Below, one piece after another: positions 22,942 to 60,781 of a stretch of 64,000 nucleotides of DNA. The notes under the pieces were generated by a model that was not told the origin of the DNA, did no database searches, and saw nothing but the letters and a program-made list of their open reading frames with translations. Positions within the stretch are counted from its first letter, which is position 1, and the number at the start of each line of letters is the position of its first letter. Both the position numbers and the translations under genes were made by a program. The DNA lies in the NCBI GenBank assembly GCA_039930045.1, contig JBDSQB010000003.1, forward strand, positions 62,001 through 126,000, read 5' to 3'. This DNA comes from Chthoniobacterales bacterium (GTDB lineage: Bacteria; Verrucomicrobiota; Verrucomicrobiia; Chthoniobacterales; DASVRZ01).

Positions 22942-22953
22942 AACTCCACTGTT

Positions 22954-23063
22954 TTCGGGAGCGCACGCGTCTCGCGTGTTCCGGCGGACGTCTCGTCCGA
23001 TGGCTTGGACGAGCCCTTTCGCGAGACGCAAAAGGGAACACGCGAGACGCGTGCGCTCCCGAA
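22954..23063. repeat. Dispersed inverted-repeat element, family B, copy 1
   Basis: About 110 bp bounded by inverted ends: TTCGGGAGCGCACGCGTCTC on the left and GAGACGCGTGCGCTCCCGAA on the right, continuing inward to GCGTGTTCC and GGGAACACGC. Inside is a second small palindrome (GGACGTCTCGTCC...GGACGAGCC). It sits between the convergent recN and ctpA genes and could also act as a two-way transcription stop. A second copy with the same ends lies at 49891-50017. No gene is in the gap. Confidence 0.85.
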
Positions 23064-23095
23064 GAAAGCTCTCATTAGAGCCTAAGCAGTATTAA

Positions 23096-35689: not shown

Positions 35690-37135
35690 ATGAATCCAAA
35701 CCGACCCAAGAAACGCACCAAAATCGTGGCCACCCTCGGGCCCGCCAGCAGTGATGAAACGACCCTGCGCGAAATGATGCTCGCCGGCATGGACGTGGTG
35801 CGCATTAATTTTTCCCACGCCATTCACGACCAGCTCATGCCCGTGCTGGAGCGGATTCGCCGGCTCGCGGGCGAGCTGAAAATCTCCGTGGCCATCCTCG
35901 GCGATTTGCGCGGACCCCGCATTCGCGTGGGACGTTTCCCCGGCGGTTCGATCACTTTGCAGAAAGACACGGAAGTGAAACTCGCCCCTGGCGCGACCTT
36001 GTATGTGCCCGGCGTGATACCCGTTTCGCACTCCGGCATGTCCAACGATGTGAAACCCGGCGACCTCGTCCTGCTCGACGACGGCAATCTGGAACTCACC
36101 GTGCTCAGCGTGGGCAGCGACAGCCTCATTTCCTGCACGGTCGTTCGCGGCGGACAACTGAAGGACAACAAGGGCATCAATCTCCCCGGCGTGCGCGTGA
36201 GTCTGCCTGCGCTCACGCAAAAGGACTTCGCCGACGTGGATTTCGCCATCGCGAATCACTTCGATTTTCTGGCGCTCTCCTTCGTGCAAACGTCCGCCGA
36301 TGTCCTGCAACTCCGCCAGCATTTGAAGGCTGCCGGGAGCAAGATCGGGATTGTTTCCAAGATCGAAAACAAAAGCTCCCTCGACGACATCGAGGCGATT
36401 GCCCGTGAATCCGACGGCGTGATGGTGGCGCGTGGCGACCTCGCGCTGGAGGTGAGTTTTTCCGATGTGCCGCTGGCGCAGAAGACGATCATCGACGTTT
36501 GCCGCCAGCAATCCACGCCCGTCATCACGGCCACGCAGATGCTGGAATCCATGATCACCTCGCACAAGCCGACCCGCGCCGAGGCGGCCGATGTGGCCAA
36601 TGCCATTCTCGACGGCACGGACGCGCTCATGCTTTCCGCCGAGTCCGCCGCCGGTCAATACCCGGTGTTGTCCATCGCCACGATGTCGGAGATAGCGATC
36701 CGAGTCGAAGGCGCGCTCACCCGGAAAGAAGTCGCCGCGCTGCCCCCGCTCCAGTTGGTGCCCGATCTGGAAGCGTGCGTCGGTCATGCCGCGCAAATGA
36801 TTTCCAAAACGCTGTCGGCGAAAGTCATCGTCATCGCCACCTTCTCCGGGCTAACCGCGCATCGCGTGGCCTGCCATCGCCCGAATATCCCGATCATCGC
36901 CATCGTTGCCAATCCGGCGATTGCCCGCAAACTCAGCCTCTGCTGGGGCGTCGAAAGCGTCCTCACCGGAGAAATCAACGGCACGAATCAGTTGGTCAAC
37001 ATGGCCATCTCTCAAAGCATCGAGATTTACGACGCGCAGCCGGGCGACGTCATCACGATCACCGCAGGCACGCCCTACAATCAAAAGGGCACCACGAATC
37101 TCATCAAAGTCGAGCGCGTGCCGTCAGCCGCGTAA
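35690..37135 (+). CDS. pyk: Pyruvate kinase
   Basis: 481 residues. It catalyses the last step of glycolysis, phosphoenolpyruvate plus ADP to pyruvate plus ATP. Family landmarks are TKIVATLGPASSDETTLREM, VVRINFSHA, ILGDLRGPRIRVG, KIENKSSLDDIEAI with SDGVMVARGDLALE, the catalytic block ITATQMLESMITSHKPTRAE and GTDALMLSAESAAGQYP. The C-terminal allosteric domain is present. ATG at 35690 matches the family start. The TAA stop is directly followed by a 135-bp MITE-like element, and the stop bases may derive from the insertion site. Confidence 0.96.
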   Translation: MNPNRPKKRTKIVATLGPASSDETTLREMMLAGMDVVRINFSHAIHDQLMPVLERIRRLAGELKISVAILGDLRGPRIRVGRFPGGSITLQKDTEVKLAPGATLYVPGVIPVSHSGMSNDVKPGDLVLLDDGNLELTVLSVGSDSLISCTVVRGGQLKDNKGINLPGVRVSLPALTQKDFADVDFAIANHFDFLALSFVQTSADVLQLRQHLKAAGSKIGIVSKIENKSSLDDIEAIARESDGVMVARGDLALEVSFSDVPLAQKTIIDVCRQQSTPVITATQMLESMITSHKPTRAEAADVANAILDGTDALMLSAESAAGQYPVLSIATMSEIAIRVEGALTRKEVAALPPLQLVPDLEACVGHAAQMISKTLSAKVIVIATFSGLTAHRVACHRPNIPIIAIVANPAIARKLSLCWGVESVLTGEINGTNQLVNMAISQSIEIYDAQPGDVITITAGTPYNQKGTTNLIKVERVPSAA

Positions 37136-37270
37136 GAGGGCGTCTAAGAAGTCTCGAAAACAGGTAGGGACATGCGGCCTCGCATGTCCTTGGACCGCAT
37201 GGAGCAGACGAGCGGGCCGCTCGTCCCTACCATCCAACAGAAGCCAAGGGACTTTTGCGACGCCCACCAA
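37136..37270. mobile_element. MITE-like element with nested REP pair, copy 1
   Basis: About 135 bp. The left end GAGGGCGTCTAAGAAGTC and right end GACTTTTGCGACGCCCACC are imperfect inverted repeats. The middle carries a complete REP pair (37163-37231). A second copy at 60436-60570 has the same outer arms and inner REP pair with only scattered differences, so the whole unit moves or duplicates as one. No transposase is inside. It lies immediately after the pyk stop. Confidence 0.75.
37163..37231. repeat. REP pair (BIME-like), copy 1
   Basis: Bounded by GGTAGGGAC and GTCCCTACC. It contains two near-perfect palindromes, GGACATGCGGCCTCGCATGTCC-type (stem GGACATGCG) and GGACGAGCGG/CCGCTCGTCC-type. 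Both are the same types that frame the RAYT transposase gene at 44 kb. Confidence 0.85.
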
Positions 37271-37347
37271 GGCTTTTTCAACCGGAGACGGCTTCCATCC
37301 GCAAAAATTGTTTTCAGACGTGAGAAAGTCGGATTAAGTTACCTCCC

Positions 37348-38205
37348 GTGACTGAAGTAACCGAGTTTTCCCGCACAAAAACGAACGCCGACGATCCCAT
37401 TGGCGAGGCGGAGGCCGCCCTGGCGGAAGCGCGATTGCTGCCTGCGCCGGAAAATCCCCAGATTGCCAGCCAGATGATTCAGCTCGGCGACTTGTATCGC
37501 GAGGCGGGTGACTTGGAAAAAACCGTATCGCTCTTCGAGGAAGCGCTCTGGATCATTAACGAATACGCCAGCGACACCGTCGGCTCGTATCGCATCGCGC
37601 ACGAGATTGGGGCGATTCACGACGCGCTCGGCGAACGGGTAAAAGCCTGTCGCTTTTACGAGGAAGCCCTGCGTCTTTCCGGCGGCGGACGCGGCGTCGA
37701 TGCCTGCGAAGTGGCCACCATTCACAATAATCTCGCGATGACTTACAAGCTGATGGGCAAGCTCGATCTCGCTGAAACCCACTATCACAAGGCGCTCGAA
37801 ATCTACGAACGCGTGCGCGGCGCGGATCATCCCGAGGTCGCCACCATGCTCAATAATCTCGGCGCGCTCTACATTGCCCAGCAGGATTTCGACATGGCCG
37901 AAGTCATGCATCTGCGCGCGCTCGGTTTGCGGCAAAAAGCCTACGGCGGCAATCACCCCGACGTCGCCCAATCCTTCAGCAACCTGGCCGTCGTCTATCA
38001 CTCGCGGCAGAACTGGAAAAAAGCCGGGGCCTACTATCGCGACGCGCTCGACGTGCTCGCCAAACAAGCCCGCACCGATTGGTCGGAATACAGCATCGTC
38101 CTGCGCAACTACGCCGACTTCCTGCGCCAGACCGGCAAGGGCCGCAAAGCCGACGAACTCGAAACCGAGCTCGACCAACGCCTAGCGCAAATCGCCAGCA
38201 GCTAG
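37348..38205 (+). CDS. TPR-repeat protein (kinesin-light-chain-like)
   Basis: 285 residues, GTG start. About five tetratricopeptide units follow a 35-residue head; clear units include AGDLEKTVSLFEEALWIINE, MGKLDLAETHYHKALEIYE and QQDFDMAEVMHLRALGLRQ. There is no signal peptide or membrane helix, so it is a cytoplasmic scaffold of unknown partner. The last unit has VLRNYADFLRQTGKGRKADE. A similar stretch in frame 3' of the next REP pair (ILNYALFLRQQKSRLREEDA) suggests a related gene was once next to it. Confidence 0.82.
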   Translation: MTEVTEFSRTKTNADDPIGEAEAALAEARLLPAPENPQIASQMIQLGDLYREAGDLEKTVSLFEEALWIINEYASDTVGSYRIAHEIGAIHDALGERVKACRFYEEALRLSGGGRGVDACEVATIHNNLAMTYKLMGKLDLAETHYHKALEIYERVRGADHPEVATMLNNLGALYIAQQDFDMAEVMHLRALGLRQKAYGGNHPDVAQSFSNLAVVYHSRQNWKKAGAYYRDALDVLAKQARTDWSEYSIVLRNYADFLRQTGKGRKADELETELDQRLAQIASS

Positions 38206-38212
38206 CCCAAAA

Positions 38213-38279
38213 GGTAGGGACGAGCGGCCCGCTCGTCCGATAGACCCGACAACAGACATGCGGGCCGCATGTCCCTACC
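38213..38279. repeat. REP pair (BIME-like), copy 2, reversed order
   Basis: Same boundary blocks GGTAGGGAC and GTCCCTACC, but the GGACGAGCGG palindrome comes first and the GGACATGCGG-type palindrome second. Thus the element is inverted relative to the other copies. It lies eight bases after the TPR gene stop and four to six bases before an orphan TPR-like fragment. Confidence 0.85.
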
Positions 38280-38285
38280 ATGTAA

Positions 38286-38489
38286 TCTCCGGCGGAAGCC
38301 CGGCAATCGATCCTCAACTACGCTCTTTTTCTGCGCCAACAGAAGAGCCGTCTCCGAGAGGAAGATGCGGTATGGAATGACGGCTTTTCAGACCCGGAGA
38401 AAATGAAACACTTCGCCGAGTGGACCCAAAAGTCTCTTTCCGAAAGCCCGGTCGAACCGCTCGACCCTTTCTTCACAGCCGCAATTTAA
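38286..38489 (+). pseudogene. Remnant of a TPR-type gene (C-terminal fragment)
   Basis: An open frame with no start codon near its head, beginning at the REP pair. It translates as SPAEARQSILNYALFLRQQK, then REEDAVWNDGFSDPEKMKHF and AEWTQKSLSESPVEPLDPFF, and ends with a stop at 38489. The phrase NYALFLRQQKSRLREEDA parallels NYADFLRQTGKGRKADE at the end of the intact TPR gene. It looks like the surviving C terminus of a related gene or of an older, longer version of the neighbour, cut when the REP pair arrived. Its end overlaps the convergent NACHT gene by 17 bases. Confidence 0.5.
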
Positions 38490-41400
38490 TAACGGGAGAA
38501 GAAAAGTGGATCAACACAATCTCAAGGCCGGAAATATCGGGACGCATTTCCTGAATTTCCTCGGCGCGCTTACGGAGCATGGCATGCATTTGTTCGCTGT
38601 CGATCCGCAGTCCCTCTCCTAACGGTTCCCATCTCCGATTCCGATTGAACAGGGCGAGAACGTAAATGCCATAACGGGCATGGTGGTCCCGCAAATAGAG
38701 GTCCACTAACTGTTTCTCCAAGCCGTCCACCAATTCCTGGAGAGTCCAGTTGTCAGCGATCTTCAGCTCAAGCGAAACTGGCGCAGCATTTGGAATGACC
38801 AGACGAAGATCTGGTCGGCCGCCTACGATTTCCCATTCAGGTGCAATGACGTGGCCACGGGCAGTCTCGTTCAGCTTCCGTCTTAGCCAATCGCGAAAAC
38901 CTGCTTCATTATCTTCGGAATGCACTTCACGTCGGGGACTATCCTCCCCTAACTCAACCCATCGCTTCAGATCGAGAATCCGCCGCAGGCCAGTTTTAAA
39001 CAGGTCTGAGTCGGTTTGAGGTTCGCGTTCATAGTCTGTCGCAAACGCCCGCACATCGCTTGCTCTCCAAGGTTTTTCCTCCGCCATTTGCTCATGATGT
39101 TTCTCAAGGAGATGCCGCATGTAATCGGAACAATGCGAGAGCAAGGGTTCGGACAATAGCTCCTGTAGAACCAGGCCAACTTCTGGACTTGCCGTCGCAA
39201 CCAGTCTCTCCAGCAGCCCTCCACGGAAATCTTGGGCATCATCGCGGGAAGTTGGGGAATAAGCACCGCCGCCCGCGCGATTGATATCGTCCTCTTGGCG
39301 AATATACCGATGAACTAACGGGATAAATTGCCTCATAGCCGCTGGTTTCAGCCACGAAGGATTGGGTAGAACTGCAAGTTGGTACCCATGTCGCCCGCCT
39401 AAAAAGCTACATATCGAAATCATGGCGTCTGAGGCATTGCTCGCAGTCCCTAATACAGAGTCCAACTTGGCAATAGCTGGTAAAGCGTCCGCCTGAAGCC
39501 ATACCGCCATCCATCGTGCGAAGCTAGATGCAGATGCCTCGACCGCTAGGGTTCTTTGCTTTGCCAAACTGGCAAGGCTTTCGATTGCGGTGTCAGATGA
39601 AACGATGATAAAAATCGCGTATTGAAGAACTTGTGGGTTGGTCGGCTCTCTTTGAGCTAATCGTTCCATAAGCAGTGGCCGAGCGAGGCTACCTGCGGCG
39701 CTTCCACTGTAATAAAGCTTGTTGAGTGCAAGGTTGGAACACTCGGTGTCCGCAGGGAATTCCCATTCTGCGGAAATGCATTCGTCCAAGACTGATAGCA
39801 CGGCCGTAGGCTGGGCGTGTATTAGATCATCAAACCACGGGGTGACACCGCTAAACTCATTGAGCGCGTAACGAGTAGCGCGACGAGCATCCTCGAAAGG
39901 CAAATTAGAAAACTTGAGACTACCTTCCTGCCATAAGATTAAGATACCCGCTAGGCCCGCAGTAGTGCCATATGTCGCACCCCTATTGGGCTCTCTCTTG
40001 TGAGGTAGAGGGGGTTCGTAACGTTCCCAAACCCTCTTACAGCCCTCCTTCACCGCACGGACGCATTTTGTGCCTCGTTTCTTCTCCAGCAAAGACCAGT
40101 CGCTTGGATACTGTCGGTCGTGTGAATCGCCGCAAGCTTCGGAAGCCAGACTAACCAACCATCCGGCATACTCGCCAGACTGTATCTTGTCACGATGGTA
40201 CCAGAGGTCCCAGCGAGTTCGAAGTTTGCTAAGAGGTTTCTTCGCTTTTTGCCGAGCCATCCACCACTGATGGCGGTAGGAGCGGTAACGAATGTGGCGA
40301 TACCAGAACGCCCTAGCGTGAGCTACAAAACCAGGATGCAAAAAGTTTCGGAGCTGCTTTCGCGCTTTCGGAAAAGGCATCACGGCTTGTTTAATGCGGA
40401 CTAAGTCGGCACGAACTCGACCGGTCTGTTGCCAAACGTCCAATGCCCACCACAATGAGGTTTCACGTTCACTGTCTGAAACCGTATTCTCAAGCCAGCT
40501 AAGTATCCAAAGCAGGTCGTTTCCGCACGGTTTTAACCAGTCAAAGAAAATGGTAACACTTGAAAACCGCGCATCCGTGATTTTGTGTTCCTTCATCAAC
40601 CGTTCTGCCGCGATCCGGAAATAACGCTCTCTTAGATTTTGATGAAGTTCCGTACGTGCGGGAATTGTATCTTCTCGACCTGTATGGTACCTGCGGCGAC
40701 CAGCACCGATAAGAATCTCCGCAATGCACGATGCTTCTTCCTCCGAAAGAGTTGGCCAGTCGAGCATTACACTAGAAACAGCAACCGCTGTTCTCAAGCT
40801 GGGCGAAGGCTCGATATCATCCTCGTCTCCGTCGTCTTGGATCGGGTGACCAAGAAGTCCTTTTAAAAGAAAAAGGCCGTTTTCATGGGTCGTTACCGAA
40901 GCGAGGTGACTGGAAAGGGTGTAATCCCAGCCAAATCCACCTCGCGTGACCGGTTCCATTCGGCTCAGCGCACGAAACAGCTGTGCGACGGTCCAAATCT
41001 TCGGGAACAGCAGATCGCAAAGTGGTACGCAAACGCGCGCTGGAAATCGCTCCACCTTCTCTGCAGCAAAGGCCAACTCCCTCAGATTATCTTCACTGGC
41101 AACAACCTTCAACGCACGAGCCGCCGTGGGGAAAACCTCCCCTTTCGACAGTTCGGCAGTCGCCAGTGTGAGAACTGCTGGTGCGCATTCAGTCAACCTC
41201 CCCGCTATAACCATTTCCAGTCCAAGCTCTCGAAGCGTTTGTCCGCTTGAAGGGGCAGTCATCAGTTCGTTAATTTCTTCGGAGAGCGCTGGGTCAGCGA
41301 GTCGCGAGAGAGTTGCATCATCGTGCTTCCACCACAGATGTTCACGCCCATCAGCCTTCTGTAAGAGTGCCTTTAGCAAGCCGCGCCGATCTTCAACACT

Positions 41401-42756
41401 CAGCATTGCCGGATCACCGAGACGAAGGAGAATTTCCGGAGCTACCTCTAGGACTCGCCTTCGCACGTTCGTATTCCATCTTGCTGGCCCGGCGCAGAGC
41501 CAAGCCGCAAGCGAAGCGAGAGAAGGACGCAGAAATCGCTTAGTATCACGTGCTTCGAAGAGCAAATCCTCTAGCTCTCCTACGGGACAGCCTTGCACCA
41601 TCAACCCTTCGAACCAGCGAGCCGCTAGGAACTCGGAGAGGCGTCGATGATGAAATCGGATGTGGCCATAACTCGCGCCGTCAAAAAGGGCATGATTTAG
41701 CAATGCTCGAATCTCCTCATTCCGCCAGTCCGGTGGAAGGCAGGCAAGAGCATCAAGTGACTGAGCGGATACGTTCGTTTCTCCGGGAATTTGAAAGCTA
41801 AACTTGCGGCAGAGAACAGTCACGGCAGCGAGGCATTGCGCACCGCTTTGCGCCCGCTCCAGCGACATATCACTTCTCTCACGGTCTGAAGTTTTCTTCA
41901 GTTGGCTCTCGCAGATAAAGGAGAGGATTTGTGTCAGCGTTCCGAGGCTTCCTAATTCGCGCCAATAGGCAAGCAGGTCATTAACGTCGGCGGGCCGCCT
42001 TGCCAGTTCCCATGCATGTGCTTTCTCCAAAGCTTGGAGAAACGGTTGCGCATCAATAACTCCTCGAGCTTTCGCGTAAGTCGTCACTGCTGCTTCGTCG
42101 AGAGGCAGCAACTGAACGACTAAAGGATAGTTTTCTTCCGAATTGTTTTTGTTCCCAGGCGTGGAGGAGCTAGCGCTTTGTTGAGGAATTCGAGTCCGAA
42201 CTTCGTGACCATCTGTAGTTGGTAGCCATTCCGTAATGCGAGAGCTGATCACGATTGTCGCTCGGCTCAAAGCGCGGCGCTCCACCAGCCCAACGAAACG
42301 GTCTAGAGCTCGATAGAAATCTGTAGCCTGACGGATTTTCGCCTCATCCACTGAATCCAAGAAGAATACTGCCTTTTCGCTAGTCGCCCGCCAATCTACC
42401 AAACGCTTTTGGTCGTCATCACCGAGACGGAATTGATCCCCGTCTGTAGCTAGCTCATCCAAGCGCATGTAAAATCGCGAACAGCCGGGAGAGATGAGAC
42501 TGGCTTGCTGCTTTAATTCATACGTCTTACCACTTCCTGGTTCGCCGAGCACAACGACCAGAGGATGCTCTAGCAATTCATCCCAACTCAGCGCATTGCG
42601 CCTCCCAAGCCAATCCGAAGGAGGTGCATAGCTCTGGAGTGCAGATTCTTCCCCTGCTGCCTCCTTTGCCACGGGCGCAAATGTTCTGCGGAGGTCAATA
42701 TAGTTTGGAGGAGATACCACAGAAGAAGCTAGAGCGGACAAATTATGTGTAAACAC
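38473..42756 (-). CDS. NACHT-type ATPase with C-terminal PD-(D/E)XK-like domain (putative defence protein)
   Basis: 1,427 residues with a GTG start. A 60-residue head precedes a STAND/NACHT P-loop: Walker A GEPGSGKT at 71-78, Walker B KAVFFLDSVDEAKI near 129-140 and a sensor strand RATIVISSRITEW near 166. About 900 residues of helical, repeat-like sequence without clear motif follow. The last 140 residues form a likely nuclease fold, with GGRPDLRLV (Asp near 1316) and SLELKIAD (Glu near 1330, Lys near 1332), then LEKQLVDLYL and YGIYVLALF, as in PD-(D/E)XK effectors. This order suggests a phage sensor that activates DNA cleavage. Bases are clearly less GC-rich than flanking genes, suggesting transfer. 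No partner gene lies beside it, and a 21-bp array starts 36 bases upstream of the start codon. Confidence 0.8.
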   Translation of the reverse strand: MFTHNLSALASSVVSPPNYIDLRRTFAPVAKEAAGEESALQSYAPPSDWLGRRNALSWDELLEHPLVVVLGEPGSGKTYELKQQASLISPGCSRFYMRLDELATDGDQFRLGDDDQKRLVDWRATSEKAVFFLDSVDEAKIRQATDFYRALDRFVGLVERRALSRATIVISSRITEWLPTTDGHEVRTRIPQQSASSSTPGNKNNSEENYPLVVQLLPLDEAAVTTYAKARGVIDAQPFLQALEKAHAWELARRPADVNDLLAYWRELGSLGTLTQILSFICESQLKKTSDRERSDMSLERAQSGAQCLAAVTVLCRKFSFQIPGETNVSAQSLDALACLPPDWRNEEIRALLNHALFDGASYGHIRFHHRRLSEFLAARWFEGLMVQGCPVGELEDLLFEARDTKRFLRPSLASLAAWLCAGPARWNTNVRRRVLEVAPEILLRLGDPAMLSVEDRRGLLKALLQKADGREHLWWKHDDATLSRLADPALSEEINELMTAPSSGQTLRELGLEMVIAGRLTECAPAVLTLATAELSKGEVFPTAARALKVVASEDNLRELAFAAEKVERFPARVCVPLCDLLFPKIWTVAQLFRALSRMEPVTRGGFGWDYTLSSHLASVTTHENGLFLLKGLLGHPIQDDGDEDDIEPSPSLRTAVAVSSVMLDWPTLSEEEASCIAEILIGAGRRRYHTGREDTIPARTELHQNLRERYFRIAAERLMKEHKITDARFSSVTIFFDWLKPCGNDLLWILSWLENTVSDSERETSLWWALDVWQQTGRVRADLVRIKQAVMPFPKARKQLRNFLHPGFVAHARAFWYRHIRYRSYRHQWWMARQKAKKPLSKLRTRWDLWYHRDKIQSGEYAGWLVSLASEACGDSHDRQYPSDWSLLEKKRGTKCVRAVKEGCKRVWERYEPPLPHKREPNRGATYGTTAGLAGILILWQEGSLKFSNLPFEDARRATRYALNEFSGVTPWFDDLIHAQPTAVLSVLDECISAEWEFPADTECSNLALNKLYYSGSAAGSLARPLLMERLAQREPTNPQVLQYAIFIIVSSDTAIESLASLAKQRTLAVEASASSFARWMAVWLQADALPAIAKLDSVLGTASNASDAMISICSFLGGRHGYQLAVLPNPSWLKPAAMRQFIPLVHRYIRQEDDINRAGGGAYSPTSRDDAQDFRGGLLERLVATASPEVGLVLQELLSEPLLSHCSDYMRHLLEKHHEQMAEEKPWRASDVRAFATDYEREPQTDSDLFKTGLRRILDLKRWVELGEDSPRREVHSEDNEAGFRDWLRRKLNETARGHVIAPEWEIVGGRPDLRLVIPNAAPVSLELKIADNWTLQELVDGLEKQLVDLYLRDHHARYGIYVLALFNRNRRWEPLGEGLRIDSEQMHAMLRKRAEEIQEMRPDISGLEIVLIHFSSPVIKLRL

Positions 42757-42792: not shown

Positions 42793-43065
42793 TTCTTAAA
42801 CTCAAGGAATCGCTTCCTGAACCAAAGACGTCGCTTTCTTACCCAAAGACATCTCTACTTGAACCAAGGAAGGCGCTTCTTTCGCCCAAGACGGCGCTTC
42901 TTGACCTAAGGAAATCTTTTCCAAAACCCAAGATGTCGCTTCTGGAACCCAAAATGTCGCTTCTGGAACCCAAGACGTGATGGGTTTGACCCAAAAAGAC
43001 ATTTTTTGAACCCAAGACATCGCTTCTTGAACCCATGAAGCGGCTTGGTTAACCCAAAATGGGCC
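42793..43065. repeat. 21-bp tandem array (array 2, 13 units) upstream of the NACHT gene
   Basis: Thirteen units of exactly 21 bases with consensus close to TTCTTGAACCCAAGACGTCG plus C. No unit is perfectly conserved, but AACCCAAGA recurs in register throughout. All six frames give heptapeptide repeats (plus: SLLEPKT; minus: SWVPEAT) without stable starts. It ends 36 bp before the NACHT start codon, so any longer leader of that gene must be transcribed through it. Rotated by one base, the consensus nearly equals that of the array at 59361-59717. Confidence 0.9.
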
Positions 43066-43323
43066 ACATTGGGATTAAACTCCTCTCAAAAATAATAGGG
43101 ACTTCACATTTTTATGCAGAATTGCGACGCGGTTTTGCTTCGCAAAATTGTTTGCAATTTTATTCCGACTTTCCATCTAAATAGGGTGTGGGTGCGGTCC
43201 TCAATTTTGAGAATGTGCCGGGGGTGCGCGGAGTCTGCTTGGTTAGGAACTTGTTGCGGACATGATGCGAGCAATCGAGGCACTCTCCCTCGTTCACCCG
43301 GGAGTTTAGAAATAAAGGTTAAG
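43066..43323 (+). other. AT-rich leader upstream of the fibronectin-like gene
   Basis: 258 bp without a convincing gene. It contains small inverted repeats (AAAATTG...CAATTTT near 43143-43162) and an AT-rich stretch that could carry a promoter for the gene starting at 43324, and for the NACHT gene in the other direction. An open frame from 43114 runs through, but its first 70 residues look non-coding. Confidence 0.4.
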
Positions 43324-43941
43324 ATGATAAATAAAATATCGATCGGGTTCCTGGGATCCGATTCCAATGCAGAGTTAGTCGTTAAAGTGGACACGATCAC
43401 GTCCGCTCTCACGGGAAATCCGAATTATCCGGCCACGGATTCCGGCATCGCTGAAGTGATCGCGCTGAACACGGAATTCAAGGACGCTATCGTGGCGGCG
43501 GCCGATGGCGGCACGGCGTTGACGGCGGCTCGCAATGCGAAGCGCAGTGAGCTGTGCATGCGTGTGCGCACCCTGGCGGCGTATGTGCAGGCCAATGGAA
43601 AGAATGACCAGGCGATCCTCATCAGCAGCGGGTTTCCCATGCAGAAGAGCACGCGCACGCCTTCGACGATCCTGCCCGCTCCGGTGTTGCAAAGCATCGG
43701 CGCAGGTCCGAATACCGGCACGGTAGTGATGAAGCTGGTGGCGCTCGGTGCCCAGGTCTATAACTGGCGCTGCTTTCTGGCTTCCGATCCTCAGACGAAC
43801 TTGAGTGTGATGCAAAGCACGTCGGCGACGACGTTGTTTACGGGTTTGACGCCGGGGCAATCGTATTGTTTCCAAGGCAATGCGACCAATGCGGCCGGCA
43901 CGAGTGACTGGAGTGCGCCGGTGCCTTTGATCGTGACGTAA
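43324..43941 (+). CDS. Fibronectin type III-like small protein
   Basis: 205 residues. The N-terminal half is helical with ELVVKVDTITSALTGNPNYP, SGIAEVIALNTEFKDAIVAA and LAAYVQANGKNDQAILISSG. The C-terminal half is a fibronectin type III-like beta domain ending with FTGLTPGQSYCFQGNATNAA and DWSAPVPLIVT. This two-part layout recurs in Verrucomicrobia and Bacteroidetes, without a known role. No signal peptide is visible. ATG at 43324 follows an AAAGG-like site and is favoured. A strong hairpin terminator follows. Confidence 0.78.
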   Translation: MINKISIGFLGSDSNAELVVKVDTITSALTGNPNYPATDSGIAEVIALNTEFKDAIVAAADGGTALTAARNAKRSELCMRVRTLAAYVQANGKNDQAILISSGFPMQKSTRTPSTILPAPVLQSIGAGPNTGTVVMKLVALGAQVYNWRCFLASDPQTNLSVMQSTSATTLFTGLTPGQSYCFQGNATNAAGTSDWSAPVPLIVT

Positions 43942-44031: not shown

Positions 44032-44117
44032 GGTAGGGACATGTGTTCAGGTAGGGACATGCGGCCCGCATGTCCGTTGGTTGGACGTATCGGACGAGCG
44101 GGCCGCTCGTCCCTACC
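44032..44117. repeat. REP pair upstream of RAYT, copy 3
   Basis: An extra GGTAGGGACATG half-unit, then GGTAGGGACATGCGGCCCGC, ATGTCC, a spacer, and the GGACGAGCGGGCCGCTCGTCC palindrome closing in CTACC. It lies 26 bp upstream of the RAYT start, in the usual place for REPs that belong to a resident transposase. Confidence 0.9.
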
Positions 44118-44143
44118 TTTTTGGGTTGATTTTGTTTCTTTGC

Positions 44144-49890: not shown

Positions 49891-50017
49891 TTCGGGAGCG
49901 CACGCGTCCCGCGTGTTCTTTGAGGTGTCTCGCCTCAAAGCTGTTTCAGATGGCCACTGCGTCAAAGCCCTTTCGCGAGACGCAAAAGGGAACACGCGGG
50001 ACGCGTGCGCTCCCGAA
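49891..50017. repeat. Dispersed inverted-repeat element, family B, copy 2
   Basis: Same inverted ends as the 22954-23063 copy, with CGCGTCCCGCGTGTTC in place of CGCGTCTCGCGTGTTC, and matching change on the other arm (GAACACGCGGGACGCG). The paired change keeps the stem intact, pointing to pressure on structure. The inner right half (CCCTTTCGCGAGACGCAAAA) is shared; the inner left half differs. It lies between the terminator and the small hem-operon gene. Confidence 0.85.
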
Positions 50018-52912: not shown

Positions 52913-53050
52913 GAATTAAGGGAGGATCAATTTGAAGCGGAGTGGGTGAAAAAACAAGGGAGACCGGGAGAAACCTGAAACTTGAAGGGAGTCCGTTCGT
53001 TTTCCTCTTTCAAGTTTCGGGTTTCTAGTTTCAAGTTTCCGCTTTCTCCC
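52913..53050. other. Spacer with repeated TTTCAAGTTTC motif
   Basis: 138 bp between divergent ccsA-like and apt genes. It holds GAAACTTGAAG near 52977-52987 facing TTTCAAGTTTC twice, at about 53010-53020 and 53030-53039, which can fold into a loose hairpin. It may be a small repeat element or a leader structure of apt. No gene is in it. Confidence 0.4.
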
Positions 53051-53614: not shown

Positions 53615-54619
53615 CTAAAACACATCATCCAAAGTCTTCGCCTTGGTGAGCCGGGCTGAAGACGTGTAACGCGGTGCTTGTGGCGCACTTACCTTTCCGC
53701 CCGAAACCAAAGGCAATGGGCCTATCTTCTTCGCAGGCTCTTTGAAGTTAAGCACATACTTTCCAGAATCTTTCCAAGGCTCAATCGATGCGATCTCCGC
53801 GATGTAGGTGATCGCCGATACGGGAGCGATTTGATACGTCGCCAGATAACGGAGCTTGGGAATCATGCTGGAATGAATGCGGATGGCATACCAGCGATCT
53901 TCGCCCAGGAAGGTCTCCTTGAATCCATCCTCTCTGGCAGACACCACCACGGTATCGATCTCCGCGGGGTCAATCGCAGGAGTATTCCCACTTTCCGCCG
54001 CCACCGTCACGCTTTGCTTGCTGAGATCATAGAGGAACGGCTCAAACTGATAGATCGCCTCCCCGGTGGCCGAACGGAACCGCACTACTTCCAATGTCTC
54101 AACAGGAAAACGCAACGAACTGCGCACAATGCTTTCCAACTCCTCTTCCAGCTCATCGATGATAACCAACGCGTTAAACGCATTGTCGGGGTAAATCATT
54201 TGCTCCAGCAGATAGTCGATATTGCTAAACCCATTCGCCGTCGCATAAGCCTCGCATCGCGCCAAGGCTTCCAGGTTCTTCTGCAAGCTTTCGCGCAGGA
54301 TGCCTTTCATCTTTTGCGGCGAGCTTTTGAAGGAAAGGGAGAAGTTTAAGAGCTGTTGGGCAATGTGCCGGAGTGGATCGTGCCGCGCCAATTCCACTTC
54401 CACCAGATAGAGCACAGGCTTGCGGGGGCTGGAGAGGTCGAGCAAATAGGCGTCGGGAATGTTCTGGGTCTTGCCCCGCTCGCCAATCAGCTTCTTCACT
54501 TCGAGATAGATGCGACTCTCACCAAAAAGCGCCGTCTTTACCTCGGCGATGGTCGTTTCAAGTTCAGCCTCTTTGTCAAAAGGCCAAGGGTGAAATTGTT
54601 GGGTTGGGGTCCAGAGCAT
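53615..54619 (-). CDS. Restriction-island protein with putative PD-(D/E)XK-like core
   Basis: 334 residues, last gene of the restriction operon. The N-terminal third has a run suggestive of a nuclease-type strand pair: TQNIPDAYLLDLSSPRKPVL then YLVEVELARHDPLRHIAQQL. The Asp and the ExE pattern, with a His/Arg tail after it, recall a family often next to restriction systems; the usual Lys of ExK is not evident. The middle is helical, and the C-terminal half has beta-rich sequence (EDRWYAIRIHSSMIPKLRYL) and a Lys-rich end. It starts 17 bp after the middle gene. The function is unknown. Confidence 0.6.
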   Translation of the reverse strand: MLWTPTQQFHPWPFDKEAELETTIAEVKTALFGESRIYLEVKKLIGERGKTQNIPDAYLLDLSSPRKPVLYLVEVELARHDPLRHIAQQLLNFSLSFKSSPQKMKGILRESLQKNLEALARCEAYATANGFSNIDYLLEQMIYPDNAFNALVIIDELEEELESIVRSSLRFPVETLEVVRFRSATGEAIYQFEPFLYDLSKQSVTVAAESGNTPAIDPAEIDTVVVSAREDGFKETFLGEDRWYAIRIHSSMIPKLRYLATYQIAPVSAITYIAEIASIEPWKDSGKYVLNFKEPAKKIGPLPLVSGGKVSAPQAPRYTSSARLTKAKTLDDVF

Positions 54620-54636: not shown

Positions 54637-55818
54637 TTATAAAGTTATCTTACGTCCATTCGGAACAGTTCTCGTTGGACCTTCCGCGACCTTGAGGTTG
54701 ATGTGAATAAATGACCCGCCCCCGTTTCCGTCTGCGGGGAACTCCCGTTGCTTTTCGTCCGGTGGCTCACCTCCTTCATCATCTTCGTGCAGCAGAATCT
54801 TTTCGAGTCGTTCTTTTGAAATCTTGTTTTTCTCCTTAACGTATGATGCGGCACTCTCTTTGAGCTGCGGGCTATTAAACGCATCTGCCAAACTCACAAA
54901 CGGATTGGAAACGAGCGCTAGTTCAGCATGTAGTGCTTCTCTCAGAAGAGCCCTCCCCTCTCGGGCAATCCGAGGAACATCTTTCACAGCAATTATACCG
55001 CTTGAGCATCTCAACGCCTCACTCATTGCTCGCAACACCACATCATGGACAATTCTATTCCACGCGAACTCTGTAGAGCTAACTGGATCAACTTTAATCC
55101 CAAACTGGCCGGTCATGAGGTCAAACATTGCGCCCCCAAATGATAAATCCTTCTTTGGAGCATCGACATTCAAGGGTTCTGTGACGGTAGATGTATTTAG
55201 CATCCAGTTTGGCATTGGGTGTCCATCCATGAACGCCCAATAGCAGAACCCCTTGCTTTTTGCCCCAGGCATCGTGCGGTGTCCGCTCGTGCTATCGGAA
55301 AAGTTCGGAAGCGAATAGTTTCCTGAATTTCTAAATCGAAAAGTCGGTGCTTCTTCATAAAGCTTCCGCTGGCGCATTGTCGAAACGCCGGAAGATAAAT
55401 CGGAACGCTCCACCTTAGCTTGGAGAAAACACGCATTGCCTAATGCTAATTCGCCGTCGTCCCCTTCGTATGTTACCAGCACGAGTAAGTCACATAACTC
55501 GCATCCAGGACCTGTAGTTGGTATATCAAAGTCAACTACCGGCCCAGACGCTCCTGCTTTATGGCAGAATACTCCTTTCAGCTCGGCGCTTATATGGTGG
55601 CGACTCAAGACTGCATTGAGGGTTTCCTGCATCGTCGGCAGTTGCAGAAAAAAGTTTATGAGTGTCTTCACTTCACCGGGCCGCTTGGCTTGTAAGGGTT
55701 CGCTTTTTGAAAGCGCATGATAAAGCGCCTCGTAAAACACTGATTCGATCGCAACTCGAGATGTTAGTAGCGACTCGTGAATTCGTTTCATCTGTGAGGA
55801 TATTGGTGATGTTGGCAT
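54637..55818 (-). CDS. Restriction-island protein of unknown function, QAK-type nuclease-like motif
   Basis: 393 residues. After a helical head comes VVDFDIPTTGPGCELCDLLV followed by DGELALGNACFLQAKVERSD. The Asp in CDLLV and the QAK triad occupy positions like D and (E/Q)xK of restriction endonuclease folds such as Mrr, but this is a motif-level guess. The tail is acidic, then Gly-rich. The gene is noticeably AT-richer than its neighbours, suggesting separate origin. It starts five bases after the methyltransferase stop and precedes a third gene by 17, so the three are one operon. A substrate or partner is not evident. Confidence 0.6.
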   Translation of the reverse strand: MPTSPISSQMKRIHESLLTSRVAIESVFYEALYHALSKSEPLQAKRPGEVKTLINFFLQLPTMQETLNAVLSRHHISAELKGVFCHKAGASGPVVDFDIPTTGPGCELCDLLVLVTYEGDDGELALGNACFLQAKVERSDLSSGVSTMRQRKLYEEAPTFRFRNSGNYSLPNFSDSTSGHRTMPGAKSKGFCYWAFMDGHPMPNWMLNTSTVTEPLNVDAPKKDLSFGGAMFDLMTGQFGIKVDPVSSTEFAWNRIVHDVVLRAMSEALRCSSGIIAVKDVPRIAREGRALLREALHAELALVSNPFVSLADAFNSPQLKESAASYVKEKNKISKERLEKILLHEDDEGGEPPDEKQREFPADGNGGGSFIHINLKVAEGPTRTVPNGRKITL

Positions 55819-55823
55819 AGTTT

Positions 55824-58800
55824 TTAAAATGAAAACTTCTCTCCAGTTCGATGCGCACGACCTAGAGTGGCGAGGGTTTCCAAGATTTCAGCAAGGTCTT
55901 CGGGTTTGGCGCGGAGGAAGTGTTTGGAGAGTTGGGCGGCGGTGACGGGGGCGGCGGCGAGTTGCAGGGCGCGTTCGACGGCTTGCACGCGTTCGGCCAA
56001 GGGTTTGGGCCACGGGGTTTTGCCGACCTTGGTTTTGGCGGTGGCAACGGCGGCGGTGGTGATGGCCAGGCCGGTTTGCGTGGTGGCGCCTTTGGGTGCC
56101 TGGTATTCGGGGCGGAGCCAGCGGATTTGGCCGTCGGCTTCCTCGGCGGCGCGTTCGGCGTTGAGAGCGACGAGGCGGGTGAGGATTTCGGCGTCGAGTA
56201 GATTGGCAGGCCAACCGTAGGCGGCGGCGACGGCGGCATCGAGTTCGTCGTGGAGTTGGCGGAGGATAGAGACGAGGCCCTGGTCGTGAATGATTTGTTC
56301 CTTGGCGGTGAGGGCCCTTCCGGCGCGGAGGGCTTCGAGGACGTTATACATCGCGGTGAGCGAGAGGCCGGGGTGTTGCGTCTGGACACGTTTGCGGTGC
56401 GCGTCCAATTCCTCGCCTAATGACCGGATGCGGGCTTTCGTCTCTTCGTCAGCTGCGGGAAAGGGGAAGGGGTTAAAGGTTTCCTGATGCTGATAACGAG
56501 TGTCGTTTCCGACTCCTAATCTGCCAGCCATGCTTACTGCCCAAGCTAGATGAATTCGTGACGACAGGACGCCAAGAATCCACGCGTCGTCCGTCACAAT
56601 CGCGACAACTGAGGTGTCCGGGCGAGTCTCTGCTGATACGAATTGAAAAGTGAACCACTTAGCCGTCCGTGGAACTGCAATATATCTATTCAGGCTGGAG
56701 ACTGCACCCCTAAGCGCGGGTATAGGTCGGGTGAATAGCCACCAGTTACGTCGGCGCTCTTCCACCGGGTTAACGTCTCGCTCAGGCTTTACTCTCGTGA
56801 GAACCCATTGGAAAAGACTTGGGAATCGGCGGCGCACGTCTTCCTGCTCGAAAGGATAGAAGTCGATAACCCGTGCTTTCCGCGACACTTGCGCGAGGTC
56901 TCTAGCGATGACGAACGGCTTAACCACCGTCGCCGCTTCCGCATCGGTTCCACAAGCAGCCGAGACTTCTTCCGGTAGTAAGACAAACCCTTGCCCAAGC
57001 GGGTACATCCCGGTGAATGCCATACCTTTATTTGCTTTGAGTGCCATTGCAGCTTGGCCGCTGTCACTAAGCTTGAGATCAGCCGCAATGCGTCCAATTA
57101 TCGCAGCAAAGGCTACCTTGGCCGAACCGTCTTCAAGCGGCTCCTCGACGGTGACCGTACGCAGTTCGCCGGTGAGCTCACCCGCGGCACCCACCGTCAT
57201 CGCAATCCGGACAGCGGCACCCTCTGCGGTGTCCACCCACGGATGATCAGGAATTGCGAAGATTAGTGATAGCTTCTTGAGATGTGAGTGCACCACTCCC
57301 CGATTGAAAATCATCCGAAGGCTGTTCGTGGTGATGAACCCGAACCTGCGGAGCGCGTCGCTTTCGGTGAGCGTCGCTGCTTTCTCCCACCAATACATAA
57401 CGAAATCCGCAGTTTCCGGGACGCTCGGATACGCTGTACGTAACGCCTCAGTGTAGCCGCTGCCGAGAGCATCGCGCATCCGTTTGTTTCCAATGAAAGG
57501 CGGATTGCCGACGACGTAATCCGTCTTAGGCCAACCAGCCGGCCGGGCATTTGGATAGGTGAGAAGGGGGAGGCGTTTTGATTCGTCGGGAACGGGGCGT
57601 CCGGTGACGAAGTCGGTTTTTTGGCTCCGCCGGTCCCAGACTGTGATCACTTCGCCCTGCTCGTCACGCGCGGGCTGGGGGTCGCCATCCCATGCGAGAA
57701 CGGCGTCGCGGCATTGGATGTTGCGAAATTTCTTGAGGACGGGCTCGGCGGGCAACGATTGGCCCCTCGTGCGGAAGTGCCATTGCAGGTAGCCGATCCA
57801 GAGGACCAGCTCGGCAAGCGAGGCGGCGCGGGGGTTGAGTTCGATTCCGAGGAATTGATGCGGATCGACGCTGTGGGTGGCGAGATCGAGGAGGAGGTTT
57901 TCGCCGAAACCGGCGGCGACATCGAGGACTTCACCTTCCAGACGTTTCAGATGTTCGAGGGCGACGTAGAGGAAGTTTCCCGATCCGCAGGCCGGGTCGA
58001 GCACGGTGACTTCGCAGAGTCGGTTATGAAACCCGGTAATCTCAGCTCGCGCCTTGGCGAGTTCGCCGCGTTGGGCATGGACGAGAGCCGCCGCACGAAT
58101 CGCGTCCCACTCGGCTCGCAGCGGTTCGACGACGGTGGGCAGAACCAGCCGCTCGACGTAGGCGCGCGGCGTGTAGTGGGCACCGAGTTGATGGCGTTCC
58201 TCGGGGTTGAGCGCACGCTCGAGCAAGGTGCCGAAGATGGCCGGCTCGACGTCTTTCCATTGTTTGCCCGCTGCCTGGATGAGAATGCCAAGCTGGGTGC
58301 CATCCACCGGAAGCACGCTGGCGTCTGCAAAGAGGCCGCCGTTAAAGCGGAGCAGCTTCTTATTGAGAATGACGGAGAAATCCGTGCCCGTCTGCATCTC
58401 GGCGAAGAGCTGGCGAAGCTTGGGAACGAATCCCTCCGGCGATGAGCGCAGGCTTTCGAGCAATCCGCGAAAGCTATCCTTGGGCAAAAGCCCCACGTCC
58501 TCGGCAAACATGCAAAAGAGGCAGCGGGTGAGAAATTCGGCGACGATGCGCGGCGCGTGCCCGGCTTTTTCCAGCGAAGACGCCAGCACGGCCAGATAAC
58601 CGGCAATCTCGCGGGTGACTTCGGCGCTGACTTTCGAGGGATCGAGCGCGAGCGGTTCCAGCCAGATGCCACGCAGGCGGGCGCGGACTTTCTCATCGCC
58701 CAGATCCTCCAACCGCAGGCGAAAGGTGCGCGGGTCGGGAAAGGGCAGGTAGCTTTTCCCCGCTTGGGTAAAGTCGGCGTAAACTTCGATGCTGTGCCCC

Positions 58801-59258
58801 ACATCGACGATGAGCAGAAAGGGCGGGGCGGGTTCCTCGGCGGGCAAGGCACGGGCGTAGCGTTCGGCTTGTCCACGGGCGCGAATCATGGCGTCGTCCC
58901 AGGCGTCGCTGCCACGGATGGGGCCGGTTTTCTTTTTGGCAACGGCGGCACCGGAAGCAATGGCAACGAGATCTAGGTCAGTCTGCTCAGCTTTTGGAGC
59001 GAAGAATTGCTTGGCCTCCAAGACAAAGCAGCCGCGCCGATAAAGATCGATCCGCCCATCGGAATAAGTGCCCGGTCCGGTGGGAATGCGAACGGGGAAC
59101 TCGAATGAATAGCCGCCCGCGTGTGAGTTGTCGGGTCGAGGCACGTCGAGCAAGTCGGCCAGACCGATCAGGAACGGCTGTGCATTGGCCCGTTCTGACG
59201 CCTCGGCGGCGGACCAATAGGCAATGAACGTGTCGATGGGGGAAGCGCCGTCAGCCAT
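55824..59258 (-). CDS. MmeI-like type IIG/IIL restriction-modification enzyme
   Basis: 1,144 residues. An N-terminal PD-(D/E)XK site (Asp 71, Glu 81, Lys 83 in GRIDLYRRGCFVLEAKQF) has the D-x9-E-x-K spacing of MmeI. A helical spacer (EFLTRCLFCMFAEDVGLLPK) leads to the adenine methyltransferase: HYTPRAYVERLVLP, motif I TVLDPACGSGNFLYVALEHL and NPPF near 585-588. Target recognition should follow, around residues 590-930, where base composition drops. The C-terminal 110 residues end in a winged-helix-like segment. MmeI enzymes are about 920 residues, so this one is long. A DISARM or BREX-type methylase is the main alternative, but their helicase genes are absent. ATG 59258 is preferred over an in-frame TTG. 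Confidence 0.88.
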   Translation of the reverse strand: MADGASPIDTFIAYWSAAEASERANAQPFLIGLADLLDVPRPDNSHAGGYSFEFPVRIPTGPGTYSDGRIDLYRRGCFVLEAKQFFAPKAEQTDLDLVAIASGAAVAKKKTGPIRGSDAWDDAMIRARGQAERYARALPAEEPAPPFLLIVDVGHSIEVYADFTQAGKSYLPFPDPRTFRLRLEDLGDEKVRARLRGIWLEPLALDPSKVSAEVTREIAGYLAVLASSLEKAGHAPRIVAEFLTRCLFCMFAEDVGLLPKDSFRGLLESLRSSPEGFVPKLRQLFAEMQTGTDFSVILNKKLLRFNGGLFADASVLPVDGTQLGILIQAAGKQWKDVEPAIFGTLLERALNPEERHQLGAHYTPRAYVERLVLPTVVEPLRAEWDAIRAAALVHAQRGELAKARAEITGFHNRLCEVTVLDPACGSGNFLYVALEHLKRLEGEVLDVAAGFGENLLLDLATHSVDPHQFLGIELNPRAASLAELVLWIGYLQWHFRTRGQSLPAEPVLKKFRNIQCRDAVLAWDGDPQPARDEQGEVITVWDRRSQKTDFVTGRPVPDESKRLPLLTYPNARPAGWPKTDYVVGNPPFIGNKRMRDALGSGYTEALRTAYPSVPETADFVMYWWEKAATLTESDALRRFGFITTNSLRMIFNRGVVHSHLKKLSLIFAIPDHPWVDTAEGAAVRIAMTVGAAGELTGELRTVTVEEPLEDGSAKVAFAAIIGRIAADLKLSDSGQAAMALKANKGMAFTGMYPLGQGFVLLPEEVSAACGTDAEAATVVKPFVIARDLAQVSRKARVIDFYPFEQEDVRRRFPSLFQWVLTRVKPERDVNPVEERRRNWWLFTRPIPALRGAVSSLNRYIAVPRTAKWFTFQFVSAETRPDTSVVAIVTDDAWILGVLSSRIHLAWAVSMAGRLGVGNDTRYQHQETFNPFPFPAADEETKARIRSLGEELDAHRKRVQTQHPGLSLTAMYNVLEALRAGRALTAKEQIIHDQGLVSILRQLHDELDAAVAAAYGWPANLLDAEILTRLVALNAERAAEEADGQIRWLRPEYQAPKGATTQTGLAITTAAVATAKTKVGKTPWPKPLAERVQAVERALQLAAAPVTAAQLSKHFLRAKPEDLAEILETLATLGRAHRTGEKFSF

Positions 59259-59360
59259 GAGTTGCAACTGTTTGTAGAGGAAAAGCCCGCGTTGTCGAAC
59301 TTTCCTGATGGAGTGCGGGCATTCTTGTCGAGTTGGCCTGAATTGAGCCGGCGAAACTGT
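59259..59360. other. Leader between array 3 and the restriction operon
   Basis: 102 bp between the 21-bp array and the restriction gene start. It should contain the operon's ribosome site and perhaps its promoter. GCCCGCGTTGTCGAAC... and ...AGTGCGGGCATTC near 59285-59321 could pair into a short GCCCGC/GCGGGC stem, but it is weak. Confidence 0.3.
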
Positions 59361-59717
59361 TTCTGACCTAGGGAAGTCTTTCCCTTACCCAGAGAAGTCG
59401 CTTCCATAACCCAAGAAGTCGCTTCCATAACCCAAGAAGTCTCTTCCATAACCCAAGAAGTCTCTTCCTTAACCCAAGAAGTCGCTTCGTTAACCCAAGA
59501 TGTCTCTTCCTTAACCCAAGATGTCGCTTCGTTAACCCAAGATGTCGCTTCATTAACCAAAGAAGTCTCTTCTTTAACCCAGGAAGTCTCTTCTTTAACC
59601 AAAGAAGTCTCTTCTTTAACCTAAGATGTCGCTTCGTTAACCTAAGATGTCGCTTCGTTAACCTAAGAAATCATTTCTTTGATCTAGGAAGTCTCTTCCA
59701 GAACCAAAGAAGTTTTC
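59361..59717. repeat. 21-bp tandem array (array 3, 17 units) upstream of the restriction operon
   Basis: Seventeen units of exactly 21 bases, consensus near TCCTTAACCCAAGAAGTCGC plus T. The variable sites are few: GAAGTC or GATGTC, CGCT or CTCT, and the TCCTTA/TCGTTA/TCCATA start. Inner units differ at one to three bases, so the array is younger than array 2, whose consensus it shares at most positions after a one-base rotation. All frames read as heptads (minus strand SWVKEET and SWVNEAT). It ends about 100 bp from the restriction gene start and has the same orientation relative to that gene as array 2 has to the NACHT gene. Confidence 0.93.
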
Positions 59718-59735
59718 GGCGGTCATCGACCGCCG
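59717..59735. repeat. Short GC-rich hairpin
   Basis: CGGCGGTC and GACCGCCG pair perfectly over eight bases with an ATC loop. It abuts the last unit of array 3 and lies about 40 bp past the PAP2 stop. No T-run follows on either strand, so a REP-like element is likelier than an intrinsic terminator. Confidence 0.5.
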
Positions 59736-59776: not shown

Positions 59777-60400
59777 TCACCACCACCGCGAGAATTTCTC
59801 CTGAAGCTTTTCAACGAAGGTGGTGCGTTTCGCTGGTGCCAGCAGGTTCGTCCCGCGTAGCAGACTAGTCGTCACCACTTCGGCCACGAGTCCCACGACC
59901 ATTCCCGCCGCCACGTCGAGCGGCCAGTGCGCGCCTTTCGCCACCCGGCTCCAGCCCATCGCGAGCGATGCCACCCCGCAAGCCGCGCCCGCACCCGGAT
60001 AGCTGCGCGACAAGGCGCGGCCAAATGCCACGCTGCCCGCCATGTGACCCGACGGAAATGATTGTTCCGGCTTCTGCGGTGAGCCCCCCTCTTCACTTTC
60101 GTAGCGGCCCTCGTCCAGCAAGACATGGGGGCGGGTGCGTTTCACCAGTCGTTTTGTGAGGCTTTCGCCCGCATCCGCAGCCGCCACCGCTGCGAGCAGC
60201 GTCACTCCGGTTTCGCTCAACCGCCGATTCCTCGTGCAGATTCCCCAGAGCAATAATGCGGTGGAGATGGCATAGAGCGGACCCTGATCCCCGATCTGGC
60301 TCGCCTCGCCTGCCGCTTTTATCGCAGGTTCATCGCGACGGGAGGCTAACTTGGCTCCCAACGCGACATCCGCCGTCTCAAGTTTTGTGGCAAAATCCAT
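59777..60400 (-). CDS. PAP2-family membrane phosphatase
   Basis: 207 residues with four or five hydrophobic segments. The three PAP2 signature blocks are KRLVKRTRPHV, PEQSFPSGHMAGSVAFG and SRVAKGAHWPLDVAAG, giving the Lys/Arg, Ser-His and Arg-His residues needed for phosphoryl transfer. Members dephosphorylate undecaprenyl diphosphate or phosphatidate derivatives at the membrane. ATG at 60400 is chosen; the upstream in-frame stretch runs into a mobile repeat. The gene is isolated between array 3 and the MITE-like element, so its role is not informed by context. Confidence 0.9.
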   Translation of the reverse strand: MDFATKLETADVALGAKLASRRDEPAIKAAGEASQIGDQGPLYAISTALLLWGICTRNRRLSETGVTLLAAVAAADAGESLTKRLVKRTRPHVLLDEGRYESEEGGSPQKPEQSFPSGHMAGSVAFGRALSRSYPGAGAACGVASLAMGWSRVAKGAHWPLDVAAGMVVGLVAEVVTTSLLRGTNLLAPAKRTTFVEKLQEKFSRWW

Positions 60401-60435
60401 ACCTTGAAATCGTCTCCCGCCGTCGTCTGGTCCTA

Positions 60436-60570
60436 AGAGGGCGTCTAAAAATTTCCGCAACAGGTAGGGACATGCGGCCTCGCATGTCCTTGGACCGCAC
60501 GGTGCAGACGAGCGGGCCGCTCGTCCCTACCCATCGAGCGGAAGCCAAAGTGACTTTTGCGACGCCCTCT
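60436..60570. mobile_element. MITE-like element with nested REP pair, copy 2
   Basis: About 135 bp, closely matching the element after pyk. Its ends are cleaner: AGAGGGCGTC on the left and GACGCCCTCT on the right, next to TA on both sides, which may be a TA target duplication of the type made by IS630/Tc1-like transposases. The inner REP pair spans 60463-60531. It lies 35 bp upstream of the PAP2 gene start. Confidence 0.8.
60463..60531. repeat. REP pair (BIME-like), copy 5
   Basis: Same layout as copy 1: GGTAGGGACATGCGGCCTCG, CATGTCC, a spacer with TTGGACCGCA, then GACGAGCGGGCCGCTCGTCC and CTACC. It is nested in the MITE-like element. Confidence 0.85.
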
Positions 60571-60781
60571 AAGTTCCGCATCCAAGAGGATGTGCCCGAC
60601 ATTGCCCCATTAGGTCGGCCTATCTATAGCCATTCGAGTTGCGGTCGAATCAGGTCCATGGGACCGGCATTAACCGCCCCGCACAACTAGACCAGCACGT
60701 GGCCGGGAGTGCCATGTCCATGACGACTAGATGCGGGGGTTCTCGCCTTTGTCTGGAGGGCGCGGGACTTAGGCACGAATG
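60571..60781. other. Non-coding stretch downstream of the rhamnosidase gene
   Basis: 211 bp with no open frame I can support and no clear hairpin followed by a T-run. It is mixed in composition and may be decayed sequence. Confidence 0.4.

Follow-up and report, generated by a model that had tools for sequence, protein, structure and literature searches.

The locus studied here lies in a 64,000-nucleotide stretch of the genome of a Chthoniobacterales bacterium (hereafter, the window), where two arrays of 21-bp tandem repeats, A1 and A2, stand 16 kb apart and upstream of two different defence genes. This raises the question of what such arrays are, and whether they belong to defence genes, to other genes or to none in particular.

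Arrays A1 and A2 and their flanking genes

Genes were called with our own hexamer model, and the features around the two arrays are as follows:

38473..42756, minus strand: HyoA-like NACHT antiphage protein, downstream of A2 (NCBIfam NF058534)
42793..43071, plus strand: A2 array, 13 x 21 bp, consensus AACCCAAGAMGTCGCTTCTTG, indel-free, lying between the divergently oriented HyoA-like and helical plus fn3 genes
43324..43941, plus strand: 205-aa helical plus fn3 protein, with an N-terminal helical domain and a C-terminal fibronectin-III (fn3) domain, of the array-associated family
53615..54619, minus strand: 334-aa uncharacterised protein, third gene of the putative MmeI-like operon, no Pfam match
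54637..55818, minus strand: 393-aa uncharacterised protein, 5 bp after the MmeI-like gene, no Pfam match
55824..59267, minus strand: MmeI-like type IIG restriction enzyme-methyltransferase, encoded directly downstream of A1 (Pfam, PADLOC)
59361..59717, minus strand: A1 array, 17 x 21 bp, plus-strand consensus AACCCAAGAWGTCKCTTCNTT, indel-free, upstream of the MmeI-like operon
59777..60460, minus strand: PAP2-family phosphatase, beyond A1 as seen from the MmeI-like operon, with its 3' end toward the array

The 17-unit array that an earlier note had placed before the restriction operon is real. TRF identified it at 59373-59717 with a period of 21 and 16.5 copies, and the register layout comprises 17 units (59366-59722) with 57 substitutions against the consensus in 357 positions and no indel. 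Adjacent units resemble each other more than units that are far apart. The units are arranged head to tail without spacers, and A1 is thus distinct from a CRISPR array, in which unique spacers separate the repeats. The start of the MmeI-like gene lies about 95 bp from the array. Its product presents four MmeI Pfam domains above cut-off, with the N-terminal, helicase-spacer, methylase and target-recognition domains together in one chain as in type IIG enzymes, and scores 1437 bits against PADLOC PDLC03627.

A2 consists of 13 units in perfect register, with 68 substitutions in 273 positions, so that the 30 units of both arrays hold 125 substitutions and not one indel. The best identity at lag 21 is 0.91 over 252 columns, and the other lags tested reach at most 0.42. 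The consensus units of A1 (AACCCAAGAAGTCTCTTCCTT) and A2 (AACCCAAGAAGTCGCTTCTTG) have the same base at 18 of 21 positions in identical orientation, with at most 0.43 for the other rotations and at most 0.57 for the reverse complement, and each array lies upstream of a minus-strand gene (starts at 59267 and 42756). The near-identity and common orientation claimed for the pair therefore hold. In a comparison of 15 sampled arrays of this genome, A1 and A2 form the most similar pair (0.90), followed by 0.69 for the next pair and at most 0.57 for the rest, while position-wise constraint common to A1 and A2 showed a trend only (Spearman 0.42, p = 0.06). The whole genome (3.52 Mb, 99.9% complete) holds no third array with this sequence, as searched by BLASTN, by an IUPAC pattern allowing up to 3 mismatches and by profile; the profile scan, which the earlier note had proposed, thus returned only A1 and A2, both at defence loci. 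A profile search of 56 relatives of the same order gave weak single matches, none of them within an array, and none of about 85,000 species genomes contains the exact two-unit pattern. In viral contigs, the single unit has nine isolated matches.

The sequence of the 38473..42756 product suggests a HyoA-like protein and no confirmed HyoA equivalog, as it matches NF058534 over the full length with 1092 bits, under the equivalog cut-off of 1200. A2 does precede this defence gene, as had been stated, but the first reading did not weigh the divergent plus-strand fn3 gene that starts 253 bp from the array on its other side. The AlphaFold2 model of the fn3 protein (pLDDT 89.6) shows four helices and a fibronectin-III domain, and matches in fold searches were confined to fn3 domains. 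The protein has a net charge near 0 and does not look like a DNA-binding protein. Pfam, NCBIfam and PADLOC scans of the neighbours retrieved no Rep, ParR, ParB, ParM or ParA gene adjoining A1 or A2. The HyoA-like and fn3 queries had no match in viral contigs, nor did the fn3 query in phages and plasmids.

A period shared by unrelated arrays

Arrays of this period recur in the genome. In a sample of 464 kb, made up of the window and 20 stretches of 20 kb and containing 145 intergenic regions (58 kb), 13 intergenic regions were strongly self-similar; the best lag was 21, 42 or 63 in 12 of them and 7 in the remaining one. The units of these 12 regions are unrelated in sequence, which means that the arrays keep their period, and not their sequence, from locus to locus. 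Their neighbours include genes for a histidine kinase, FG-GAP and von Willebrand proteins, an XRE-IrrE regulator and several small helical proteins, and this variety of non-defence genes shows that the 21-bp periodicity is not specific to defence. Sharing of a unit is not specific to defence either, since two arrays 115 kb apart on one contig (L097 and L100) have a common 42-bp unit in inverse orientation and adjoin non-defence genes. A weak, degenerate 21-bp array was also seen at 480-660 of the window, where it precedes the gene for a PAS histidine kinase (at 843).

The lengths of 21, 42, 63 and 22/43 bp are whole numbers of helical turns. Counting by codons or heptamers is disfavoured because units of relatives measure 22 and 43 bp, and an origin of the 21-mers from heptamers was rejected, as lags 7 and 14 are absent in A1 and A2 and lag 7 was best in only 1 of the 13 regions. 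A1 belongs to a wider, apparently undescribed class of two-helical-turn arrays, of which no prior description was found in the part of the literature that was covered.

The association of such arrays with the fn3 family was assessed by a strict test, in which the best lag had to be exactly 21, 42, 63 or 84, with z >= 6.5 and within 1 kb of the gene. Such an array lies upstream of 19 of the 27 members of the fn3 family, against 9 of 283 genes of the same genome and 3 of 464 genes of relatives, and downstream of none of 22 members. The strict test misses, among others, a 22/44-bp array (L187) and a 43/86-bp array (L196), and three family members have no array upstream (L185, L186 and L211). A scan of genome contigs gave 24 fn3-family loci. 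Once duplicates were removed, 19 of them had sufficient sequence upstream, and 21n periodicity is present at 18 of these, in some cases beside an 8-bp array. Five more distant members comprise one with a strong 21n array, one with a weak array and three with none. The fn3 gene of A2 has two paralogues in the genome, each with its own upstream 21-bp array of different sequence, and related proteins have related units. Across other Verrucomicrobiota, the upstream arrays of homologues differ in sequence. Homologues in three further genomes (G286, G295 and G007) have 21-, 42- or 22/44-bp arrays upstream; one of these genomes is the isolate Luteolibacter pohnpeiensis (G295, locus L213), and an upstream array is also found in a metagenome-assembled genome labelled Bacteroidetes.

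Upstream arrays also occur at all five members of a second family of about 246 amino acids (the L101 type), four of them by the strict test and one weak, although profile-profile comparison with the fn3 family revealed no kinship (probability 1.3). Two paralogous modules of this family (L101:5608-6861 and L189:9000-10248) are 90% identical with sharp borders, the 3' border falling at the stop codon, and it follows that array and gene moved as one piece. Their arrays differ by one indel of exactly 21 bp. Over a wider range (L101:3300-7600 and L189:6700-11000), the two loci share the array-gene cassette and another gene block, and the DNA between the shared blocks differs, beginning right at the stop codon, in what looks like cargo exchange.

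Defence genes do recur opposite the fn3 genes. Besides the HyoA-like gene at A2, the far-side genes include a Snf2-type helicase with a type IIG methylase (L183), type I restriction-modification (RM) systems at L181 and at L182 (the latter with a DUF4268 gene between), HsdM and its partner (L187) and a Cas9-like HNH/RuvC gene (L212); at L186 a type I RM system lies opposite the fn3 gene and the array is not clear. No defence gene was recognised on the far side of the other fn3 loci. The link covers about 6 of 22 array-bearing loci, a count to be read with the fact that the query loci were not chosen blind and that the search with defence queries is circular for the loci that supplied them. In a control with 48 large proteins picked at random, the 25 best-matched PADLOC families included look-alikes such as kinases and helicases, but no model for RM, Cas9 or NACHT. 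We read the enrichment opposite fn3-locus arrays as real but partial. No 21-bp array of the A1/A2 kind accompanies the MmeI-like and HyoA homologues of other genomes, which argues that the array goes with the small gene and not with the defence gene. The proposed link to defence hence survives in part: the A1/A2 unit occurs at two defence loci only, and other genomes again combine a 21-bp array, a defence gene and a member of the fn3 family, but the homologues elsewhere lack such arrays, and arrays of other sequence adjoin many non-defence genes. Membership of the helical plus fn3 family (and of the L101-type family) is a better predictor of an array than "defence". The diverged Cas9-like protein (L212:2712-6347, with HNH and RuvC-III matches) is encoded divergently from its fn3 gene across a 42-bp array.

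What the arrays may do

Tentatively, and with slightly less than even confidence, we propose that A1 is a member of a class of helically phased, cis-acting binding arrays composed of putative sites. The units would correspond to two helical turns (21 bp, with 42 and 63 bp as higher-order forms and 22 or 43 bp in two relatives), the spacing being kept while the sequence is free to change, and the putative sites would lie in a row on one helix face, available to a cooperative DNA-binding factor. This factor may control or physically organise the flanking promoters, which at A2 would be those of the HyoA-like and fn3 genes. A2 has an fn3 gene and A1 has none, and the simplest account is that A1 is an A2-type array copy parted from its gene, which could have come about by recombination before the MmeI-like operon or as a remnant after gene loss. 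A factor that binds A2 would be expected to bind this orphan copy as well, placing the MmeI-like operon under the same putative factor and the two defence loci under shared control. It is possible, though on balance doubtful, that the fn3 protein and a private, rapidly diversifying two-turn array form a new kind of genetic module, a mobile cassette with a control or recognition role towards the opposite gene (often an antiviral defence operon), with orphan arrays such as A1 bringing a second defence operon under that control.

Part of the evidence on the nature of the putative sites comes from the symmetry of the units. Seven arrays (L192, L197, L198, L199, L201, L209 and L214) have the common dyad TTTGTCC-N5-GGACAAA, and several have no dyad (L210, L174, L166 and L212). 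Compared with a column-permutation control, folding energies are similarly low on both strands, with a strong signal in about half of the arrays and a weak one in the others, A1 included. Because folding is similar on the two strands, sites for a dimer in DNA are favoured over RNA.

A row of RNA hairpins transcribed from the array, acting for instance as antidote or sponge in the manner of type III toxin-antitoxin systems, is accordingly improbable. The position of the arrays upstream of a small gene and the inverted repeats in many units would agree with it, and covariation of the arms within units exceeds shuffles in 4 of 11 arrays (L199, L209, L215 and L193). Relatedness of the units inflates this signal, and most arrays have no excess; A1 has no structured sense RNA (sense-strand folding z = 0.37), the arrays have no match in Rfam, and the nearby protein is no ToxN-like nuclease. 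The units of known type III antitoxins are also longer, at roughly 34 nt or more, than the 21 nt found here. Far less probable still is a degenerate coding sequence, with 21 bp as seven codons of a decayed coiled-coil heptad gene. One plus-strand frame of A1 does read as SLTQEVA repeats with many conservative changes, but this frame has 5 stops in A1 and 6 in A2, the lack of indels is unlike a decaying gene, and the 22- and 43-bp units in relatives of the same module cannot hold a frame; coding heptads were rejected.

The binding arrays proposed here must further be weighed against a neutral minisatellite, an unlikely reading in which the lineage amplifies short sequences in two-turn steps, one of A1 and A2 was seeded by the other through recombination, and the arrays are functionless. 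Helical-phase-dependent slippage could yield the same period without function, a REP-like repeat near A1, A2 and L183 (see below) offers recombination sites, and the adjoining of unrelated 21/42-bp arrays to many kinds of genes, the likeness of adjacent A1 units and the gain or loss of one exact 21-bp unit between the L101 and L189 modules all fit. It is opposed by the specific occurrence of such arrays, in different genomes, upstream of one protein family, at 19 of 27 against about 1-3%, by their scarcity at random genes of relatives and by the freedom from indels of arrays that are strongly diverged. The reading in the form of the earlier note, where A1 and A2 owe their presence to the defence genes beside them as parts of a defence-specific regulon or a co-mobilised island, is about as improbable as the RNA hairpins: the restriction of the unit to these two loci, the recurrence of defence genes opposite fn3 genes and the placement of A1 and A2 within a single 24 kb flanked on both sides by REP-like repeats speak for it, and the array-free homologues elsewhere, the many non-defence neighbours in this genome and the L097/L100 pair away from defence speak against it.

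If functional, the arrays would constitute a bacterial class of cis-elements that is defined by helical period and not by sequence, and that motif searches miss. They would mark the control regions of an uncharacterised family, often with restriction, NACHT or Cas9-like genes, and a shared private array such as that of A1 and A2 would be a handle for finding co-regulated defence genes. If they are functionless, it would still have to be explained why repeats form in two-turn steps throughout a lineage and why they are tied to one gene family.

Known repeat systems and dispersed repeats nearby

Among known systems, plasmid iterons and par centromeres (such as parC bound by ParR) are alike in having direct repeats spaced by whole helical turns, as in the indel-free 21-bp units of A1 and A2, with system-specific sequence, an adjoining small gene, and a dyad or half-sites in many arrays. 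They differ in that A1 and A2 are chromosomal, that several arrays occur per genome and that the neighbour is a non-basic helical plus fn3 protein and not an adjacent Rep or Par protein. Type III toxin-antitoxin systems (ToxIN, AbiQ) likewise have tandem repeats upstream of a small gene in a defence context, but they differ in unit length, the arrays described here lack strand-specific folding, and their neighbours are MmeI-like, HyoA-like and helical plus fn3 proteins, none with the ribonuclease fold of ToxN, AbiQ, CptN or TenpN. Bacterial VNTRs and minisatellites share the tandem units, the similarity between neighbours and the gain or loss of whole units; here, in contrast, one two-turn period prevails in the intergenic DNA of the genome, and the arrays follow a protein family from genus to genus.

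Intergenic repeats of the heptamer TAACTGA are found in Beggiatoaceae, Cyanobacteria and Bacteroidetes, with a proposed regulatory role (MacGregor 2015, PMC4679880). These too are tandem arrays upstream of genes at many loci, whereas the arrays described here have a 21-bp unit, a locus-specific sequence and a tie to particular protein families, and the best lags of A1 and A2 are 21, 42 and 63, unlike the 7 bp of STRR-type repeats. True 7-bp intergenic tandem arrays were observed in other Verrucomicrobiota (L065:1291-1380, L137:19761-19845, L138:19742-19805 and L056:6367-6405), some of them upstream of MmeI-like or HyoA homologues. In the window, a short run of four to six TTTCNNN heptamers (53001-53047) separates the third gene of the MmeI-like operon from a cytochrome c assembly gene.

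The REP-like repeat (GGTAGGGACGAGCGGCCCGCTCGTCC...ATGCGGGCCGCATGTCCCTACC) occurs about 10 times in the genome and is mostly found close to the L183 module, the HyoA-like gene or one of the arrays A1 and A2. Those in the window are located at 44048-44143, 38187-38279 (inverted), 60419-60573 and 37120-37271, and others at G000 C3:106637 and C8:6518 and on C14 and C16; an inverted pair brackets the unit formed by the HyoA-like gene, the array and the fn3 gene. Another dispersed repeat measures about 110 bp and was seen at least seven times in the sample (window 22953-23065 and 49891-50017; L112:8288 and 17916; L183:14259; L184:17434; L104:119). A third, of about 130 bp, is present at L109:8826-8984, L112:4092-4238, L189:10261-10389 and L116:2858-2990, and it abuts a 21-bp array in L189 and L112.
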